NCBI GenBank assembly: GCA_030645535.1
Contig: JAUSNM010000029.1
Coordinates: 1 to 64,000, forward strand
Origin: Gallionella sp.
GTDB taxonomy: Bacteria > Pseudomonadota > Gammaproteobacteria > Burkholderiales > Gallionellaceae
Reading direction: 5' to 3'
Length of the DNA: 64,000 nucleotides
The position numbers and the translations under genes are program-made. The notes under the pieces were generated by a model. That model ran no database searches and was not told the origin of the DNA. It worked only from the letters and a program-made list of their open reading frames with translations. Below are positions 32,207-49,647 of this stretch, one piece after another; the first letter of the stretch is position 1, and each line of letters opens with the position of its first letter.

Positions 32207-34237
32207 TTAATCCAAAGGGGGCATCCCGTCAACTTGAATCGAGGTTTTTTCTGACAAATGACAGTGCACGGCGTGGCTTTCAGAAATTTCTGTCTCAAGC
32301 GGATAGCTGGTTCGGCAAATCACCTCTGCATGCTTGCAGCGCGGTGCGAAATGGCAGCCTTGCGGCGGATTGGCAGGCGACGGCAAATCACCCGCAAGCT
32401 TGATAAATTCGCGGCTCTGCCCGTCGATACGCGGCACGGCAGACAGCAAGGCCTGTGTATAAGGATGGCGAGGGGAACGCAACACTTCATCGCTGGTACC
32501 GCGTTCGACGATGCGCCCCAGATACATCACACACACCTCATGCGCCAGGTACTCCACCACCGCCAGGTTGTGCGTGATGAACAAATAGGAGAGGTTCAAT
32601 TCCTGTTGCAGGTCTTTGAGCAGATTCAGGATTTGCGCCTGCACCGACACGTCCAGCGCACTGGTTGGCTCGTCGCAAATTAACAGTTGAGGCGAGACGG
32701 CGAGTGCGCGTGCAATCGCGATGCGTTGCCGTTGCCCGCCGGAGAACTCGTGCGGATAACGCCACTTGGCGGTGCGCGCAAGACCTACCTTGTCCAGCAA
32801 GGTATCTATGTGCGCCTGACGAGATGCACTGTTACCACCCAAATTCAGCGCGCTCATGCCCTCTTCGAGTATCTCCGCGACGCGCATCTTCGGGTTCAGC
32901 GAAGCATACGGATCCTGGAACACCATCTGCATCGAGGCGCGCTGGCCGCGCGAGGCGCTGCTACCTACCAGTTCGCGCCCGTCGAATTGCACGCTGCCCG
33001 CCGTGGGCTTGATCAATTGCAGCAGCGCCTTGCCCAGCGTGGTCTTGCCGCAGCCGGATTCGCCAACCAGGGCCAGCGTGCGCCCGGCTGGAATATTCAA
33101 CGACACGCCATCCACCGCCTTCACCTGCCCCACCACGCGCTGCAAGATCCCTTTGCGGATCGGAAAGTGGACCTTGAGGTCGGAGACTTCAAGAAGCTTG
33201 TGGCGGGTTGCGGGTAGCGGGTAGATAACGTCATGTTCTGCCGTTTGCTGCTCATTTTCAGCTACAGGCGACAAGCTACCAGCTACCCGCTCCGCATAAA
33301 GATGGCAACACACCCCCTGAGCATCGCCAACGGCGGTCCATTCCGGCGTCTGTTCGCTGCACAATTCCCATGCCTTATCGCAACGCGGCGCGAAACGACA
33401 ACCCTGTTCGATGCTTCCCAGCGGCGGCACGCTACCCGGTATCGCCGCCAGCGGCTGGTCGCGGCGTCCCGCGTGTGGCAGGGCTGCAAACAGTTTTTGA
33501 GTGTAGGGATGCAGCGGCTTTGCGAACAAGGCTTCGCGGCTGGCCTGTTCGACGATCTGACCTGCATACATCACGCCAACGCGATGCGCCGTTTCAGCAA
33601 CCACGCCCAGGTCGTGCGTGATCAGCAGCATCGCCATGCCACTCTTGTCTTGTGTGTCGCGCAGCAATTGCAGCACCTGCGCCTGTATCGTCACATCGAG
33701 CGCGGTGGTCGGCTCGTCGGCGACCAGCAGTTTGGGGCTGCCGGCCAATGCCATCGCGATCATCACGCGCTGCTTCATGCCGCCGGACAACTGGAACGGA
33801 TATTCAGACACACGCCGCGCCGCATCGGGGATGCCGACCTGATCCAGCAGTTCGATGCAGCGCTGATTTATATCACCTGCATTTTTATTATGTAATTCAA
33901 GCACTTCGGCGATCTGCGCACCCACCGTCATCACCGGATTCAGGCTCAGCCCCGGTTCCTGAAAGATCATCGCCATCTGACCGCCACGCACCGCGCGCAT
34001 CTCGCGCTCAGGCAACTCGAACAGCTGCGCCTCCCCCAACACCACCGATCCGGCTTTGTTAGCTACCCCGTCCGGCAACAGTCGCATCAGGGAGAGCGCC
34101 GTCATCGACTTGCCGCAGCCTGATTCGCCGAGCAGCGCGAAAGTCTCTCCGGCCGCAATTTCAAAAGATATGCCATCCACGATCGCCGCGCCATTGCGCA
34201 ACCCCGTGACCAGGCCTTCTACTTTGAGCAGACTCAC
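32207..34237 (-). CDS. yejF: Oligopeptide ABC transporter ATP-binding protein, two fused ATPase domains (YejF-like)
   Basis: Two Walker A sites (GESGCGKSMTA, GESGCGKTTLG) and two signature motifs (LSGGMKQRV, FSGGQRQRI). GTG start at 34237. Confidence 0.93.
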   Translation of the reverse strand: MSLLKVEGLVTGLRNGAAIVDGISFEIAAGETFALLGESGCGKSMTALSLMRLLPDGVANKAGSVVLGEAQLFELPEREMRAVRGGQMAMIFQEPGLSLNPVMTVGAQIAEVLELHNKNAGDINQRCIELLDQVGIPDAARRVSEYPFQLSGGMKQRVMIAMALAGSPKLLVADEPTTALDVTIQAQVLQLLRDTQDKSGMAMLLITHDLGVVAETAHRVGVMYAGQIVEQASREALFAKPLHPYTQKLFAALPHAGRRDQPLAAIPGSVPPLGSIEQGCRFAPRCDKAWELCSEQTPEWTAVGDAQGVCCHLYAERVAGSLSPVAENEQQTAEHDVIYPLPATRHKLLEVSDLKVHFPIRKGILQRVVGQVKAVDGVSLNIPAGRTLALVGESGCGKTTLGKALLQLIKPTAGSVQFDGRELVGSSASRGQRASMQMVFQDPYASLNPKMRVAEILEEGMSALNLGGNSASRQAHIDTLLDKVGLARTAKWRYPHEFSGGQRQRIAIARALAVSPQLLICDEPTSALDVSVQAQILNLLKDLQQELNLSYLFITHNLAVVEYLAHEVCVMYLGRIVERGTSDEVLRSPRHPYTQALLSAVPRIDGQSREFIKLAGDLPSPANPPQGCHFAPRCKHAEVICRTSYPLETEISESHAVHCHLSEKTSIQVDGMPPLD
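33203..33295. repeat. Two opposed heptamer arrays inside the yejF interdomain linker
   Basis: 33203-33223 GCGGGTT GCGGGTA GCGGGTA; 33261-33295 GCTACAG GCGACAA GCTACCA GCTACCC GCTCCGC. Confidence 0.85.
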
Positions 34238-34344
34238 GCGCCCGCCCGGTTCTGCTTCGATTGATGTAGTGCCGTGTTTTTGTCTTTCATGCCTGAAGGT
34301 AAATAATCTTTGTAATTCAATGCGTATGAAAAATATCCCGCGTA

Positions 34345-34473
34345 TTATACGGTGCACGCCTTGCGCTTGCCGTGAAACCGGATAAAGCGCTTAATCCAGT
34401 CCACATAAGATTGTTCGGTACGCAGGCTATAGTGTTTCGCCCGGATGCGTTCACGCACAACTTCCAGCAGCAT
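34345..34473 (-). pseudogene. intI: Truncated integron integrase IntI (N-terminal fragment)
   Basis: Minus strand encodes MLLEVVRERIRAKHYSLRTEQSYVDWIKRFIRFHGKRKACTV*, matching the IntI N-terminal consensus (VRERIR..HYSLRTEQ.YV.W..RFI.FHGKR); catalytic domain absent. Confidence 0.88.
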
Positions 34474-34545
34474 AGGTGCATGCGGAGCTGGCAGTAGAGT
34501 TTGACATGTTAAATCATGATATTCATGTAAAATCAGTTGGTTGCA

Positions 34546-34617
34546 ATATAACAGGACAGCTTATACAGAACGTTCATCTGCATACATTTGAATAGTTCTG
34601 TCCATTTAACGTTATAC
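34546..34617 (+). other. Possible attI/attC-like recombination site
   Basis: ATATAAC...GTTATAC ends with internal AGGACAG/CTGTCC inverted repeat, between the intI remnant and the first cassette ORF. Confidence 0.5.
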
Positions 34618-34627
34618 GAGATAGAAA

Positions 34628-35095
34628 ATGTGGAGCCTAGGCGAAATTTTTTCCGCTAACTCTGATAGGGCCAACCTCGTCACGGCAGTCGTATCCGTCA
34701 TTGCGGCAGTGCTCGTGGTGTTCTGCACTCACCTACTCGCCGCGCGTAGGACAAGGAGTGAGTTGAAGGCGAAGAAATTGGAGGAATGTTATGCAGCTCT
34801 AGCCGATTTCAAGAAGGCTGGCTGGGCGCAATTGCATCAGAGAGCGAGGCCAAACGAACGAGAGGTCGAAGTCAATGGAGCTTACGACCACGCACACGCG
34901 AAACTGGAGATGCTGTCCGCCATTCACGTCGAGGAAATTCAGGACAAGGTCTTGGAGATGCATACGATGGTGCTCACAATGCAGAGCGTTGAAGGCCGGG
35001 ATATGTCCTCGTTCCAAAGCGAACTTGAGAAATTTATTCGGTTGGTTACTGATGCGGAACAGGTAATCGTGGCAAAGGTTAGAAAGATCGTATAA
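34628..35095 (+). CDS. Hypothetical single-TM protein (cassette gene)
   Basis: 155-aa ORF bounded by attC-like sites; stop codon overlaps the attC R'' box. Confidence 0.75.
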   Translation: MWSLGEIFSANSDRANLVTAVVSVIAAVLVVFCTHLLAARRTRSELKAKKLEECYAALADFKKAGWAQLHQRARPNEREVEVNGAYDHAHAKLEMLSAIHVEEIQDKVLEMHTMVLTMQSVEGRDMSSFQSELEKFIRLVTDAEQVIVAKVRKIV

Positions 35096-35156
35096 CAAGC
35101 CGTTCAACCCGATCGCGCGCGAAAACGCGCGCTCCGGGTTAACGGCGGCGTTATGC
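35090..35156 (+). other. attC recombination site (well conserved)
   Basis: GTATAACAAGCCGTTCAACCCGATCGCGCGC-GAAAAC-GCGCGCTCCGGGTTAACGGCGGCGTTATGC, near-complete imperfect inverted repeat with TAAC and GTTA core boxes. Confidence 0.88.
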
Positions 35157-35174
35157 CTTTAAGAAAGTGACAAT

Positions 35175-35597
35175 ATGAAAAATGTAGTTATTGCCCTACG
35201 TGGCGCAGCAAACCAAGGCAAAAGCTCTTCAATTAAGCAAGCTTTCAGCTTACTCAAACAGAAGCTCTCAATTGATTCAATTTCACATGAAATTACAGGC
35301 GCAGACATACGAGCAGTATTAACCATTGGAAATATAAAAATTGGTATTGAAAGCCAAGGTGATCCTAACAGCAGATTAACCGAAAGCCTTAAACTATTCA
35401 CCAGTCTTGGCTGCCAAATTATCATTTGTGCCACAAGAACTAGAGGTGCAACCGTTAAAGCCGTTCAAGACTTAAACCCAAGTTACACCATAACTTTTAT
35501 AAATAAAGTTGGTGAAAAAGAAGTTTCAAAACAAGCCGCAGTAAACCTTGCCACTGCAAATCAAATAGTAACCTTGGTGCAAAATGCTCTGCCGTAG
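35175..35597 (+). CDS. Small putative P-loop protein (cassette gene)
   Basis: 140-aa ORF with GAANQGKSSS P-loop-like motif. Confidence 0.75.
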   Translation: MKNVVIALRGAANQGKSSSIKQAFSLLKQKLSIDSISHEITGADIRAVLTIGNIKIGIESQGDPNSRLTESLKLFTSLGCQIIICATRTRGATVKAVQDLNPSYTITFINKVGEKEVSKQAAVNLATANQIVTLVQNALP

Positions 35598-35655
35598 GCA
35601 TAACCCATCATTCAAGCGGGACGCCTAACGGCGCCCCTTAATTCAGACTACAAGG
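35598..35655 (+). other. Degenerate attC site
   Basis: GCATAACCCATCATTCAAGCGGGACGCC then GGCGCCCCTTAATTCAGAC; right core GTTRRRY box lost. Confidence 0.65.
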
Positions 35656-35754
35656 GCTTCCCCGTCATTGCAACTGACGTATTGGCTTTTTGTTTGGAGT
35701 CTATTTTATTTTAGTTATTTTATACCATTAGCGGGGTCACATTAGCGGGGGCAG

Positions 35755-35836
35755 GTCTAGATTCGTAGCATTGTGCTGCTTATTCGGCCCCCTGCGCTCA
35801 AGCTGATCAGCGCAGCACCTTGCTTTTACGTTAGAC
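35755..35836 (+). other. attC-like site with perfect right core, degenerate left core
   Basis: Right half GCGCAGCACCTTGCTTTTACGTTAGAC; left GTCTAGATTCGTAGCATTGTGCTGC is its imperfect inverse. Confidence 0.7.
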
Positions 35837-35846
35837 CGCATTTCAA

Positions 35847-36341
35847 GTGAGTACCCGAATGAAATTAAAATTTATACAAGCAACACCAGACAAAGCAGAA
35901 ATTATAGGTTCACTGGTCGTCCAGCTTACACAGGAAATCTGTGAGCGTACCAATGCACAACATTTCGATATTGATTTGGAAGGCACGGTTCAGAGATGTG
36001 AAGAGTTGTTATCGGCAGGTCACTACGCAGCTATTATTGGCTGGTCAGATAATATCCCTGTTGCTGTTTCGACATTCACTGAGACTTACGCTTTATATGC
36101 AGGTGGAAAGATAGGCGTAATTCAAGAGTTTTATGTTCTTCCTGCGTTTCGCTCTTCAGGTGTCGGAGCAATGCTGATAGAGCAGGTCAGAAGTTATGGA
36201 CAAAAGCATGACTGGTCGTGCATCGAGTTATGCACACCGCCGCTCCCTGAGTTTGAGCGTGCGTTAAGTTTTTATCAGGATAATGGCCTTGTTCCTGTTG
36301 GCGGTCGTAAAATGAGACAAAATCTAGCTTCAAATGCCTAA
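35847..36341 (+). CDS. GNAT family N-acetyltransferase (cassette gene)
   Basis: IQEFYVLPAFRSSGVGAMLIEQV acetyl-CoA binding motif; start 11 bp after the attC right core. Confidence 0.88.
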   Translation: MSTRMKLKFIQATPDKAEIIGSLVVQLTQEICERTNAQHFDIDLEGTVQRCEELLSAGHYAAIIGWSDNIPVAVSTFTETYALYAGGKIGVIQEFYVLPAFRSSGVGAMLIEQVRSYGQKHDWSCIELCTPPLPEFERALSFYQDNGLVPVGGRKMRQNLASNA

Positions 36342-36765
36342 CCCTGCATTCAGGCTGGAAGGCGCAAAATCAAATCGGGGTCAGACTCGAATTAACATCT
36401 CCCTAATATTAGCCGCAGCCTTTCTCCTCCTGCTGGCGGTATCAGCCTTTTCCGGCAAGTTGCCATATGCCGTCCTCGATCTTTACCTCATTGCCAGCGC
36501 CGTCGCATTTGCCGCCTACGCACTCGACAAATCAGCCGCAAAAAACAATCAGTGGCGAATCAAAGAGAGCACCCTGCACCTTTTCGCGCTGGCCTGCGGC
36601 TGGCCCGGTGCTTTAGCAGCACAAAGGCTGCTTCGCCACAAGTCCAAAAAGCTGTCATTTCAGATCGTGTTTTGGGTCACAGCCTTGCTCAATTGCAGCA
36701 CGCTCGGCTGGTTATTCTTGTCCCCGGATGCCGGGGCACTCCGCTCCTTTCTTGGTATGGCGTGA
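36334..36765 (+). CDS. DUF1294 family membrane protein, likely N-terminally truncated
   Basis: SAVAFAAYALDKSAAKNNQWRIKESTLHLFALACGWPGALAAQRLLRHKSKKLSFQIVFW is DUF1294-like. N-terminal codons derive from the half attC site and a GGGGTCAGAC motif. Confidence 0.75.
   Translation: MPNPAFRLEGAKSNRGQTRINISLILAAAFLLLLAVSAFSGKLPYAVLDLYLIASAVAFAAYALDKSAAKNNQWRIKESTLHLFALACGWPGALAAQRLLRHKSKKLSFQIVFWVTALLNCSTLGWLFLSPDAGALRSFLGMA
36336..36368 (+). other. Half attC site (left half only)
   Basis: GCCTAACCCTGCATTCAGGCTGGAAGGCGC with a perfect RYYYAAC box; right half missing. Confidence 0.6.
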
Positions 36766-36834
36766 AGGCCGTCCCGTCAATAATATCTTGCACCGAAAGG
36801 TGACAATAGGCACACATCAAGTTAAACTGCCGGC

Positions 36835-37128
36835 ATGAAACCATTTCGCTGGAACCATGAGAAAAACGAGACGCTGAAAATTGAGCGCAGCATTTCGTTT
36901 GAGGAAATAGTTCTCGCGATAGAAGCAGATGGTTTGCTGGATGAATTGCGCCACCCGAACCCGGAAAAGTATCCGAACCAGTCCATTTTTGTCGTAACAC
37001 TTGATGAATATGTTTACTTGGTGCCGTATGTTGAAGAACCGGATTACTACTTCATGAAGACAGTGATTCCGAGCAGGAAGGCTACCAGAGACTACTTACT
37101 GAGGAGCAACCAAAATGAAAAAACTTGA
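36835..37128 (+). CDS. BrnT-like toxin
   Basis: FRWNHEKNETLKIERSISFEEIV ... VIPSRKATRDYL; overlaps the downstream ORF by 14 nt. Confidence 0.65.
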   Translation: MKPFRWNHEKNETLKIERSISFEEIVLAIEADGLLDELRHPNPEKYPNQSIFVVTLDEYVYLVPYVEEPDYYFMKTVIPSRKATRDYLLRSNQNEKT

Positions 37129-37438
37129 TGCGTTTGAGCAAGATATCCTGACCGCCTATGAATCTGGCGAGTTCAAATCCACTTCACCATCAAAAGCTGA
37201 TTTAGCCAAATTCAAGGCGGCTGCCAGCGCAACCTTTATCAAAGACAGGCGAATCAATATACGGCTATCCTCGCCCGACCTGATGGACATTCAGGCGCGC
37301 GCTCTGGAGGAAGGGATTCCGTACCAGACTTTTATCGCCAGTATTTTGCACAAGTATGCCTCTGGCCGCTTGTTTGAAAAACCATCTAACCTGCCCCATC
37401 GATCAACCGGGCGCACCGACATGCGGCGCACAGGTTAA
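37115..37438 (+). CDS. BrnA/CopG-like antitoxin
   Basis: RINIRLSSPDLMDIQARALEEGIPYQTFIASILHKYASG ribbon-helix-helix type C-terminus. Confidence 0.75.
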   Translation: MKKLDAFEQDILTAYESGEFKSTSPSKADLAKFKAAASATFIKDRRINIRLSSPDLMDIQARALEEGIPYQTFIASILHKYASGRLFEKPSNLPHRSTGRTDMRRTG

Positions 37439-37488
37439 CTGCACATCAGGCGCCCTTACGCACCCGCCGGACCACCGCCAAGGCTGAA

Positions 37489-37866
37489 ATGACTACGAAA
37501 AAAACAAAGCAACCAATATGGCTTCCCGACGCGGAAGAGCACGACTTTCCTGGCGCAGAGTCATACCTGGCTTTGATCTACTCCGGCAAGCGTGCTGCAA
37601 AGATCGTCGCCAGGCTGAGAACGACCGGCATCGTCCAGTGCAAGGCCAAAGACATCTTCCGCGCTTCTCAACTCTCGCTGCTCGGGATAAGCAATTCGCA
37701 TATCGAGAAGAACAGGCAGCAAATCAAAGCAGGAGCGAGTCTGTCTCCCATCCTCCTGGTGAGGGATAAACAAAACAGAAAAGTCATCGTTGCAGACGGC
37801 TACCACAGACTATGCGCAGTCTACGGATTTGACGAGGATGCCTGGGTCCCTTGCAAGATCGTCTAG
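37489..37866 (+). CDS. ParB-like nuclease-fold hypothetical protein
   Basis: SPILLVRDKQNRKVIVADGYHRLCAVYGFDEDAWVPCKIV resembles a ParB/Srx-type fold. Confidence 0.65.
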   Translation: MTTKKTKQPIWLPDAEEHDFPGAESYLALIYSGKRAAKIVARLRTTGIVQCKAKDIFRASQLSLLGISNSHIEKNRQQIKAGASLSPILLVRDKQNRKVIVADGYHRLCAVYGFDEDAWVPCKIV

Positions 37867-37903: not shown

Positions 37904-39274
37904 CTACGTCCGGTTCAATCTGGGATCGAACGCATCGCGCACCGCGTCGGCAAACAGGTTCGCCGCAAGCACCAGCGCCAGCATGAAGCCGAAGGCTGCC
38001 GCCAGCGCCCACCACACCATCGGTTCACGCGCCATTTCCAGCCGCGCGCCGTTGATCATGGTACCGAAGCTGATCATCGAAGGATCTACGCCGACGCCGA
38101 CGTAGGACAGCACCGCTTCGGCCAGCACCAGCCCGGAAAAATCCATCACCAGTGCGATCAGAATAATGTGCATCACGTTCGGCATGATGTGGCGCGACAG
38201 GATGCGCAAACTGGACACGCCGAACGATTGCGCCGCCTGAATGTACTCCAGCTCACGCAGCTTCAAGGTCTCACCGCGCAACAGACGGCACAGCCCGGTC
38301 CAGCTGGTCATGCCGAGGATCAGGCAGAGGAACACCAGACGCAGATCGGCGCGGGAGGCGGCCGTATCGAACCAGCCGGGATGCGTGTCTATCGTCACCT
38401 GCATCATCAGCACCGCCGCCGCAATCAGCAGCACGCTGGGGATGGAACTTAACACCGTGTAAATGTACTGGATCACGTCGTCCACCCAGCCCCGGAAATA
38501 GCCGGCTGCCACGCCGAGAAACAAGGCCAGCGGCAGCGTCACCAGCGTCGTCACGGTGCCGATGATCAGCCCGGTGCGGATGCTTTTGAGCGCCAGGTAC
38601 AGCACATCCTGCCCCACCTTGTCGGTGCCCAACACGTGATAGACGGCCGCCAGATTGGCTATCATGCCAGTCAGCGCGGCAATGATGAGGGTCGCGATGA
38701 TTACCGCACGCGGCCCCTTTTGTTGAACCGCTTCGCGGTGATTTTTTAAACTGCTGGCTTCCGGCCTGCGCCGGAATGACGTTACTAAAACGAGCAATAA
38801 CGCTCCTGCCAGCAGCCCGGCCAGCGCACCGGCGCCCGCCCGCCGCGCAACATCCGCGTCACGCTCTGATGCATCAGTCAGATGCGCGCCGCCGTATTGC
38901 AACCTCGGATATTCGCGCAGCACGCGTCCCTCTGTGGAAGTGTTGCTCTCCTTGGCATACAGCGTCACGGCCATTGGGGCGGAATAGGTTTTCTCGGTAT
39001 GCAGGCGCAAGGGCTCAACCATATAGTCGAACACGCTCAGCACCTCCGGCGAATACGCACCCTTCAGGGCGACACGGTAGTGCAGCGTATCGAGCCCGCC
39101 CACCAGCAGGAAAAGCGACAACACCAGCAAGGAGACCATCGCCACGCCGCTTTGGCCCACGCGCCGCCAGGGCAGCAGCAGATGTTCATGACGGCGCACA
39201 TACCACGTCACAGCAATAACGGCTGCCAGCAGCAAAAACACCAGCGCATCGCTCCATAAGATGACCGGCATCAT
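37904..39274 (-). CDS. yejE: Oligopeptide ABC transporter permease (YejE-like)
   Basis: BPD permease signature and location next to yejB; overlaps its end by 4 nt. Confidence 0.9.
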   Translation of the reverse strand: MMPVILWSDALVFLLLAAVIAVTWYVRRHEHLLLPWRRVGQSGVAMVSLLVLSLFLLVGGLDTLHYRVALKGAYSPEVLSVFDYMVEPLRLHTEKTYSAPMAVTLYAKESNTSTEGRVLREYPRLQYGGAHLTDASERDADVARRAGAGALAGLLAGALLLVLVTSFRRRPEASSLKNHREAVQQKGPRAVIIATLIIAALTGMIANLAAVYHVLGTDKVGQDVLYLALKSIRTGLIIGTVTTLVTLPLALFLGVAAGYFRGWVDDVIQYIYTVLSSIPSVLLIAAAVLMMQVTIDTHPGWFDTAASRADLRLVFLCLILGMTSWTGLCRLLRGETLKLRELEYIQAAQSFGVSSLRILSRHIMPNVMHIILIALVMDFSGLVLAEAVLSYVGVGVDPSMISFGTMINGARLEMAREPMVWWALAAAFGFMLALVLAANLFADAVRDAFDPRLNRT

Positions 39275-48435: not shown

Positions 48436-49062
48436 ATGCGAAATGTATATGCTGCCATCCGTCTTGCCATGTTGGGCGTTTGCTTAATCATGGCAGCATG
48501 CGCGACACCGACAAAGCCTTCAGCCGATATCGCTACCCAAGAACCGCATCCATCCCCAATTAATAACTTCCAGATCGTGATTACAGATGGCGTCTATCGA
48601 AGCGGACAGCCAAAGGGAGAAGCAGAATGGGACTATCTGAAGAATATAGGCATCACGACCGTGGTCAAGCTGAACAAATTCTCGTCCGATGCAGACGAAG
48701 CTGAAGAGTTTCGTATGGCCAAGGAACGTAATATCAAAGTCATCCCTATTTACATGCAGCCGGAAGACTTTCCACATAACTTGAACCCATGGGCTAGTCC
48801 GGATGAAAAGGATCTCATGCAAGCGATAGAGGTACTAGAGAACAGGGGTAATGGGAAAATCTTGGTGCATTGCAGTCATGGAAAGGACCGCACGGGATTG
48901 GTGGTCGCGGTTTATAGTGTGCGCAACAAGAATTTTTGCAAGGATGCCGCCCACGAGCAGATGAAGCACTACGGGGCCAACCCAATTTTATTTGGGATCA
49001 AGCCCGTGCTGGACAGCCCCAATATCAGAGAAAATCCTAGCTGTACTCACGAATACAAATAG
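48436..49062 (+). CDS. Lipoprotein with dual-specificity/tyrosine phosphatase domain
   Basis: Lipobox IMAAC and CX5R motif HCSHGKDRTG. Confidence 0.85.
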   Translation: MRNVYAAIRLAMLGVCLIMAACATPTKPSADIATQEPHPSPINNFQIVITDGVYRSGQPKGEAEWDYLKNIGITTVVKLNKFSSDADEAEEFRMAKERNIKVIPIYMQPEDFPHNLNPWASPDEKDLMQAIEVLENRGNGKILVHCSHGKDRTGLVVAVYSVRNKNFCKDAAHEQMKHYGANPILFGIKPVLDSPNIRENPSCTHEYK

Positions 49063-49107
49063 GGATCACACCACAATAAACATAGCCAAGGTGTATCGAG
49101 CGATGAA

Positions 49108-49227
49108 GCCTAACACGGCAGTCAAGCGGTACTGCGCAAAGACCGCAAGGGTCTTCACCGACATCATTGGTGCTAAAGCACCTAATGCTGGCGTGAAAGC
49201 GCGCCGCCCCTTGCTTTTACGTCAGGC
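49108..49227 (+). other. attC-like site (long form)
   Basis: GCCTAACACGGCAGTCAAGCGG ... CCGCCCCTTGCTTTTACGTCAGGC; right half closely resembles the site ending at 35836. Confidence 0.68.
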
Positions 49228-49281
49228 CGCACCGCAGCAAACAGTAAGCTATGTTTTCACTAACTCTTTGGAGGCACACCC

Positions 49282-49647
49282 ATGATCCTCGGCCTGCGCA
49301 CCGCCATATACCCCGCACCAGACCTGGCTGCTGCAAAACTTTGGTACTCTCAGGTACTTGGTCAGGAGCCGTACTTCGATGAACCGTTCTACGTCGGCTT
49401 TTCCGTTGGTGGCTTTGAGCTTGGCCTGCTGCCGGGCGCGCAACCCGGCACAGTTGGCCCGCAACCGCTTTGGGGTGTATCAGGCATCGAATCGGCATAC
49501 GCCCGCCTGCTTGAACTGGGGGCTTCTGCGCTGGAACCCGTTACCGAAGTCGGCGAGGGAATCAAGGTGGCTGCGGTACAAGACCCCTTTGGCAATCGCT
49601 TCGGCATCATCGAAAACCCACACTTCAACATAAAGGCCGTGCGTTGA
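49282..49647 (+). CDS. VOC family (glyoxalase-like) protein
   Basis: AAKLWYSQVLGQEPYFDEPFYVGFSVGGFELGLLPG; AVQDPFGNRFGIIENPHF. Confidence 0.9.
   Translation: MILGLRTAIYPAPDLAAAKLWYSQVLGQEPYFDEPFYVGFSVGGFELGLLPGAQPGTVGPQPLWGVSGIESAYARLLELGASALEPVTEVGEGIKVAAVQDPFGNRFGIIENPHFNIKAVR

Follow-up and report, generated by a model that had tools for sequence, protein, structure and literature searches.

A decayed sedentary chromosomal integron very probably lies between yejE and yejF in the 64-kb stretch of Gallionella sp. DNA that we analyzed (hereafter the window). We take the host to be a relative of freshwater iron-oxidizing bacteria. A preliminary description of this DNA had proposed an integron layout, with intI divergent from a series of attC-bounded cassettes, and that layout is now backed by an attI region, by intI genes at the same place in relatives and by a truncation junction shared with other species. 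In the window, the insert parts yejE (37904-39274, minus strand, PF00528), its distal flank, from yejF (32207-34237, minus strand), its proximal flank, which lies downstream of intI. On the history that we favor, an integron would once have stood active between these two genes, with intI beside yejF and reading toward it, and with the cassette array extending from attI to yejE.

The 42-codon reading frame that the preliminary description placed on the minus strand at 34473-34345 is there exactly, reading MLLEVVRERIRAKHYSLRTEQSYVDWIKRFIRFHGKRKACTV followed by a stop. Codons 1 to ~37 are those of an integron integrase; similarity to IntI ends at HGKR, and the terminal KACTV* is foreign to it. 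The sole NCBIfam matches to this stub were two integron integrase models (NF011946 at 2.1e-13 and TIGR02249 at 1.3e-10), Pfam yielded Phage_int_SAM_4 at 1e-10, and the top chain among solved structures was the integron integrase VchIntI4 (PDB 2a3v). There was no Xer match in the recombinase family models. The comparison with non-integron tyrosine recombinases, which had been suggested as a check, showed that among the named recombinase families only integron integrases match. A complete integron has a full intI with catalytic residues and the IntI-specific domain; only codons 1-37 are left here. We found no second copy of the stub in its own genome and no IntI motif elsewhere in the 64-kb window.

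The junction between the stub and yejF is common to three sister species (G074, G076 and G077), in which HGKRHLCTV* or a close form is followed by the same TATAAT and yejF leader. Since the junction recurs in four separately assembled genomes, the truncation is no assembly error, and the deletion must predate the split of these species. The truncation is therefore old. The loss of intI from about codon 37 to its end would have happened in a common ancestor of the window's species and no fewer than three sisters, leaving the stub fused to the sequence ahead of yejF. A gene that we read by eye as acpS now stands before the shared stub stretch in G074 and G077. All three sisters conserve the TATAAT at the stub end (34344-34349, minus strand) ahead of yejF; similar elements occur in G023, G026 and G084. 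It may be that yejF gained its own promoter after parting from yejE. A sigma-70 scan of 34200-34700 scored neither a Pc promoter nor one for yejF above the chance level, and the stub-end TATAAT was not picked up either.

Upstream of the first cassette, as in an integron, lies an attI region (34481-34617, plus strand), whose core GTTATAC at 34611-34617 marks the start of cassette 1. The preliminary list of features did not contain it. Insertion of cassettes at attI leaves a conserved upstream side and a variable downstream side, with the break at the core. The alignment covers ~130 bp in seven loci of five genomes; one of these loci is a second place, contig C108, in the window's own genome. 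The loci were conserved up to AACGTT and divergent after it, the break falling exactly at the core. We regard this alignment as the strongest single proof of an integron.

To score the attC sites, we used a covariance model (R1) built from 17 sites of relatives, none from the window, and ran it unfiltered on the 64-kb window. Of the four attC-like sites described earlier, those at 35090-35156 and 35598-35651 scored well, but the other two were not significant. The first (attC 1, plus strand) is complete, with 35.7 bits and an E value of 8.5e-7 in 64 kb. Its bottom strand forms a hairpin (z -5.6) in which just one base of the L arms bulges out. The remaining sites fold less well. The second site (attC 2, plus strand) consists of the left part as far as L' (35598-35646) and lacks its right core, as had been claimed; the model gives 29.4 bits and E 3.7e-5 for 35598-35651. 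These two sites end same-orientation cassettes as expected of an integron, and the later ones are decayed. Rfam models at their gathering scores had no match in the 64-kb window.

The third site had been drawn at 35755-35836. Its right half with the GTTAGAC core (35830-35836) is real, but the span as drawn was too long and found no support. The model recovered only 35787-35836 (9 bits, E 6.4), and there was no excess fold stability. Since the right half resembles the right halves of relatives' attC sites, and CCTGCGCTCAAGC at 35791-35803 resembles a left arm, 35783-35836 (plus strand) is the better span for this decayed attC 3. We rejected GTCTAGA at 35755 as its left core. The fourth site (attC 4, 36336-36368, plus strand) is a left half only, with 13.6 bits and E 0.41 in a match that the model stretched to 36414 across foreign sequence; it is not significant alone, and its letters agree with the left arms of relatives. 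A decayed attC 5 (37384-37451, plus strand), which was absent from the preliminary list, reads ATCTAAC (37384) ... GGTTAAC TGCAC ATCAGGC (37445). It scored 12.7 bits for 37393-37451, not significant alone, and occupies the position that attC takes in relatives after the BrnT/CopG gene pair described below.

Similarity over only 37 informative codons of the stub counts against our main reading. Together with the three sites that score near background, it would suit the view that the stub belongs to some other tyrosine recombinase, or is an ORF by chance, and that the attC-like sites are chance palindromes. That view is refuted by the attI and the chromosomal place held in common with full integrons. 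The stub, moreover, matches integron models only, and two attC hits (E 8.5e-7 and 3.7e-5) stand against chance, which leaves this view with a negligible probability.

The earlier notion of progressive decay along the attC series is right insofar as several sites are decayed, but part of it is an insertion-sequence hit on attC 2, not simple erosion. From 35647 the sequence reads ACTACAAGGGCTTCCCC and onward, and this stretch (35647-35695, plus strand) shares 88% identity, across ~50 bp, with the end of an element of the IS110 family in G011, the full copy of which carries PF01548 and PF02371. Using the exact 17-bp end, we counted 25 copies with enough flanking sequence; 17 of them, the window copy included, follow the left part of an attC that stops at the same point. 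We attribute the loss of the right core of attC 2 to an attC-targeting IS1111-type element with an end that starts at 35647; such an element most likely broke the site, with its end alone surviving. Relatives of IS1111 that target attC ends are known, namely ISKpn4 and ISPst6 (PMC11187229). The element here resembles that group in being of IS110/IS1111 type, with ends that abut attC, copies that stop at one attC end and an IS110-type transposase in full copies. It differs from the elements described there in that the window remnant is ~49 bp of one end, without the transposase and guide-RNA region. With the integrase gone, capture and excision of cassettes would have stopped and the attC sites would have been free to decay, one struck by this element and others losing half sites or core bases.

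The three small plus-strand ORFs of the preliminary description (34628-35095, 35175-35597 and 35847-36341) are all present. Cassette 1 encodes 155 aa with an N-terminal membrane segment and no confident family; a search through 348 further genomes of the order gave no homologue. The 140-aa product of cassette 2 has a GxxxxGKS (Walker A-like) motif and one homologue in the order, at 36%. Cassette 3, for which ATG 35859 is also a possible start, encodes a GNAT acetyltransferase (PF00583, 5.7e-7); G154 has a copy with 87% identity, which likewise lies just past a core, GTTAGCC. Beyond attC 4, 36377-36765 (plus strand) holds GGGGTCAGACTCGAATTA and then a DUF1294 ORF (PF06961, 8.9e-25); the reading frame opens at 36334, and its 5' end is probably truncated. 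A genome search that allowed two mismatches located GGGGTCAGACTCGAATTA (36377-36394 in the window) five times, and the copy at C4:97176 also lies just after an attC. It is possibly a REP-like end.

Next comes a putative toxin-antitoxin cassette with its own leader (36794-37438, plus strand), comprising a BrnT-like gene (36835-37128; PF04365 at 3.3e-4, below the cut-off) and a CopG-like gene (37115-37438; PF12441 at 8e-6, just below the cut-off). Many relatives have copies of the pair at 77-88% identity; an attC follows directly in several, and an attC core also precedes it in G105, G050, G004 and G058. From these flanks we judge the pair to be a further cassette. With dN/dS at 0.04-0.12 (gene pair) and 0.13 (acetyltransferase), these genes have been kept, although some of the purifying selection may date from other hosts, before the genes were captured. 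In the history proposed here, some cargo, above all these genes, remains open and under apparent selection, and may still be expressed. A ParB-nuclease-like ORF recognized by eye (37489-37866, plus strand, 125 aa) is a putative cassette with a 64% homologue in G114; it had no Pfam match and no attC beside it. Searches of the cassette proteins against defense systems gave weak matches only. The array goes on beyond 36368, where the preliminary description had ended it. It reaches 37451 at the least, and yejE is its probable limit.

The flanks were compared in 76 genomes of the genus; about 27 of them have yejE and yejF contiguous, with 0 to 155 bp between the two genes. Eight congeners (G020, G032, G041, G052, G056, G062, G066 and G080) have an intI upstream of yejF, mostly intact, as do two species of another Gallionellaceae genus (G148 and G150); across the family, an integrase exceeds the family cut-off in 84 of 158 genomes. 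The gap between intI and yejF is 14-17 bp in G041, G066, G080, G032 and G020 (interrupted intI in the last), 192 bp in G052 and 12 bp in G150, and in G062 and G056 intI lies further away with another gene between. On single contigs, G052 has yejF, intI, four attC hits and yejE, and G148 has yejE, the array, intI and yejF. The array in relatives runs toward yejE, and in G148 and G071 only a few bases separate the last attC from the end of that gene; IntI C-terminal remnants precede yejF in G064, G068 and G048. A related platform thus occupies the same place in relatives, as is expected of a sedentary chromosomal integron. A RhuM-like gene, recognized by eye (start MS-E-VLIYE-ESGQT-V-VRL), repeatedly follows intI directly (L131 in G056, L132 in G062, L170 in G148, L005 and L020), and in three species it lies between intI and yejF.

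How often platforms came to this place is a separate matter. A sedentary chromosomal integron is also expected to descend vertically from one insertion, which many losses may here have followed. Alternatively, platforms may have reached the place several times, or an intI-yejF block may have spread by homologous transfer through yejF, so that the window relic is not orthologous to all the intact integrons; we put this alternative at slightly less than an even chance. The yejE tree scatters the integron states, which fits repeated arrival, but that tree is poorly resolved, with 15 of 46 inner branches well supported. There are at least three types of intI-yejF junction, and other platforms adjoin nagZ, glmU, tadA and hemH, as identified by eye; against this, the window's own junction is common to three sisters. 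The attI most similar to that of the window (79%) accompanies a full IntI in G077 (contig C9, L078, 5187-6239) beside hemH, as read by eye, and G077 also keeps a window-type intI remnant before yejF. The platform with this closest attI thus lies beside hemH and not beside yejF, which counts against our main reading, since a single insertion is then too simple a history. A bolder conjecture is that, across the genera of Gallionellaceae, chromosomal integron platforms land by preference in the yejE-yejF gap and have done so repeatedly, that the intI-attI platform can move among yejF, tadA, nagZ, glmU and hemH by an undescribed route, and that loss recurs through truncation of intI. We offer this tentatively, thinking it rather less probable than otherwise.

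Some 12 kb from the array, a lone attC (49108-49227, plus strand; 37.3 bits, E 3.4e-7), also absent from the preliminary list, may mark another integron relic within the window. With a tyrosine-phosphatase ORF on one side and a glyoxalase-family ORF on the other (48436-49647), it sits directly upstream of tadA; in G048, with the same synteny, an intI is immediately upstream of tadA. Elsewhere in the window's own genome (G000), further attC clusters were found at C27:149-4323, C37:277-339, C108:4212-5503, C3:16197-16870 and C4:97040-97105. Contig C108 has a window-type attI and two attC hits, and no intI was found there.

An intact integrase outside the assembled part might still serve the locus in trans, recombining cassettes at attI and attC 1. 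The assembly is 86.6% complete, strong attC arrays reach the contig ends in C27 and C37, and C108 has a second attI with two attC hits, all of which would fit such service. We nevertheless consider such service unlikely: the assembled genome yielded no full IntI, only five matches below the cut-off, and several attC sites are broken here, which frequent exchange would tend to remove. In our preferred account of a decayed sedentary integron, loss of intI would have allowed the later decay.

One chromosomal place can be followed across congeners from intact to truncated to empty. Why integrons die, and in what order their parts are lost (the integrase, then attC sites through IS hits and erosion, and cargo last), can therefore be tested directly by comparison. 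In the open literature, we found no published account of the Gallionellaceae yejE-yejF locus, no integron study of the family and no dedicated paper on integrons in Gallionella or Sideroxydans; the genome announcement of Ferriphaselus OYT1 mentions integrons in passing. The kind of event is already known, and this locus is a further case. The closest described one is the chromosomal integron at ilvD in Xanthomonas, which is ancestral and progressively inactivated (PMC12444791). Both have a preferred place in the genus, an intI truncated or lost in many lineages, and cassettes that remain. The locus described here differs in belonging to another family, in lying between yejE and yejF with an intI upstream of and co-directional with yejF, and in that further places are used. 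It also resembles a CALIN, a cluster of attC sites lacking an integrase (PMC12444791), in having at least two recognizable, closely spaced attC sites (35090-35156 and 35598-35651) and no functional integrase. Unlike a CALIN, it retains an intI stub and a well-conserved attI, and its origin is still visible.
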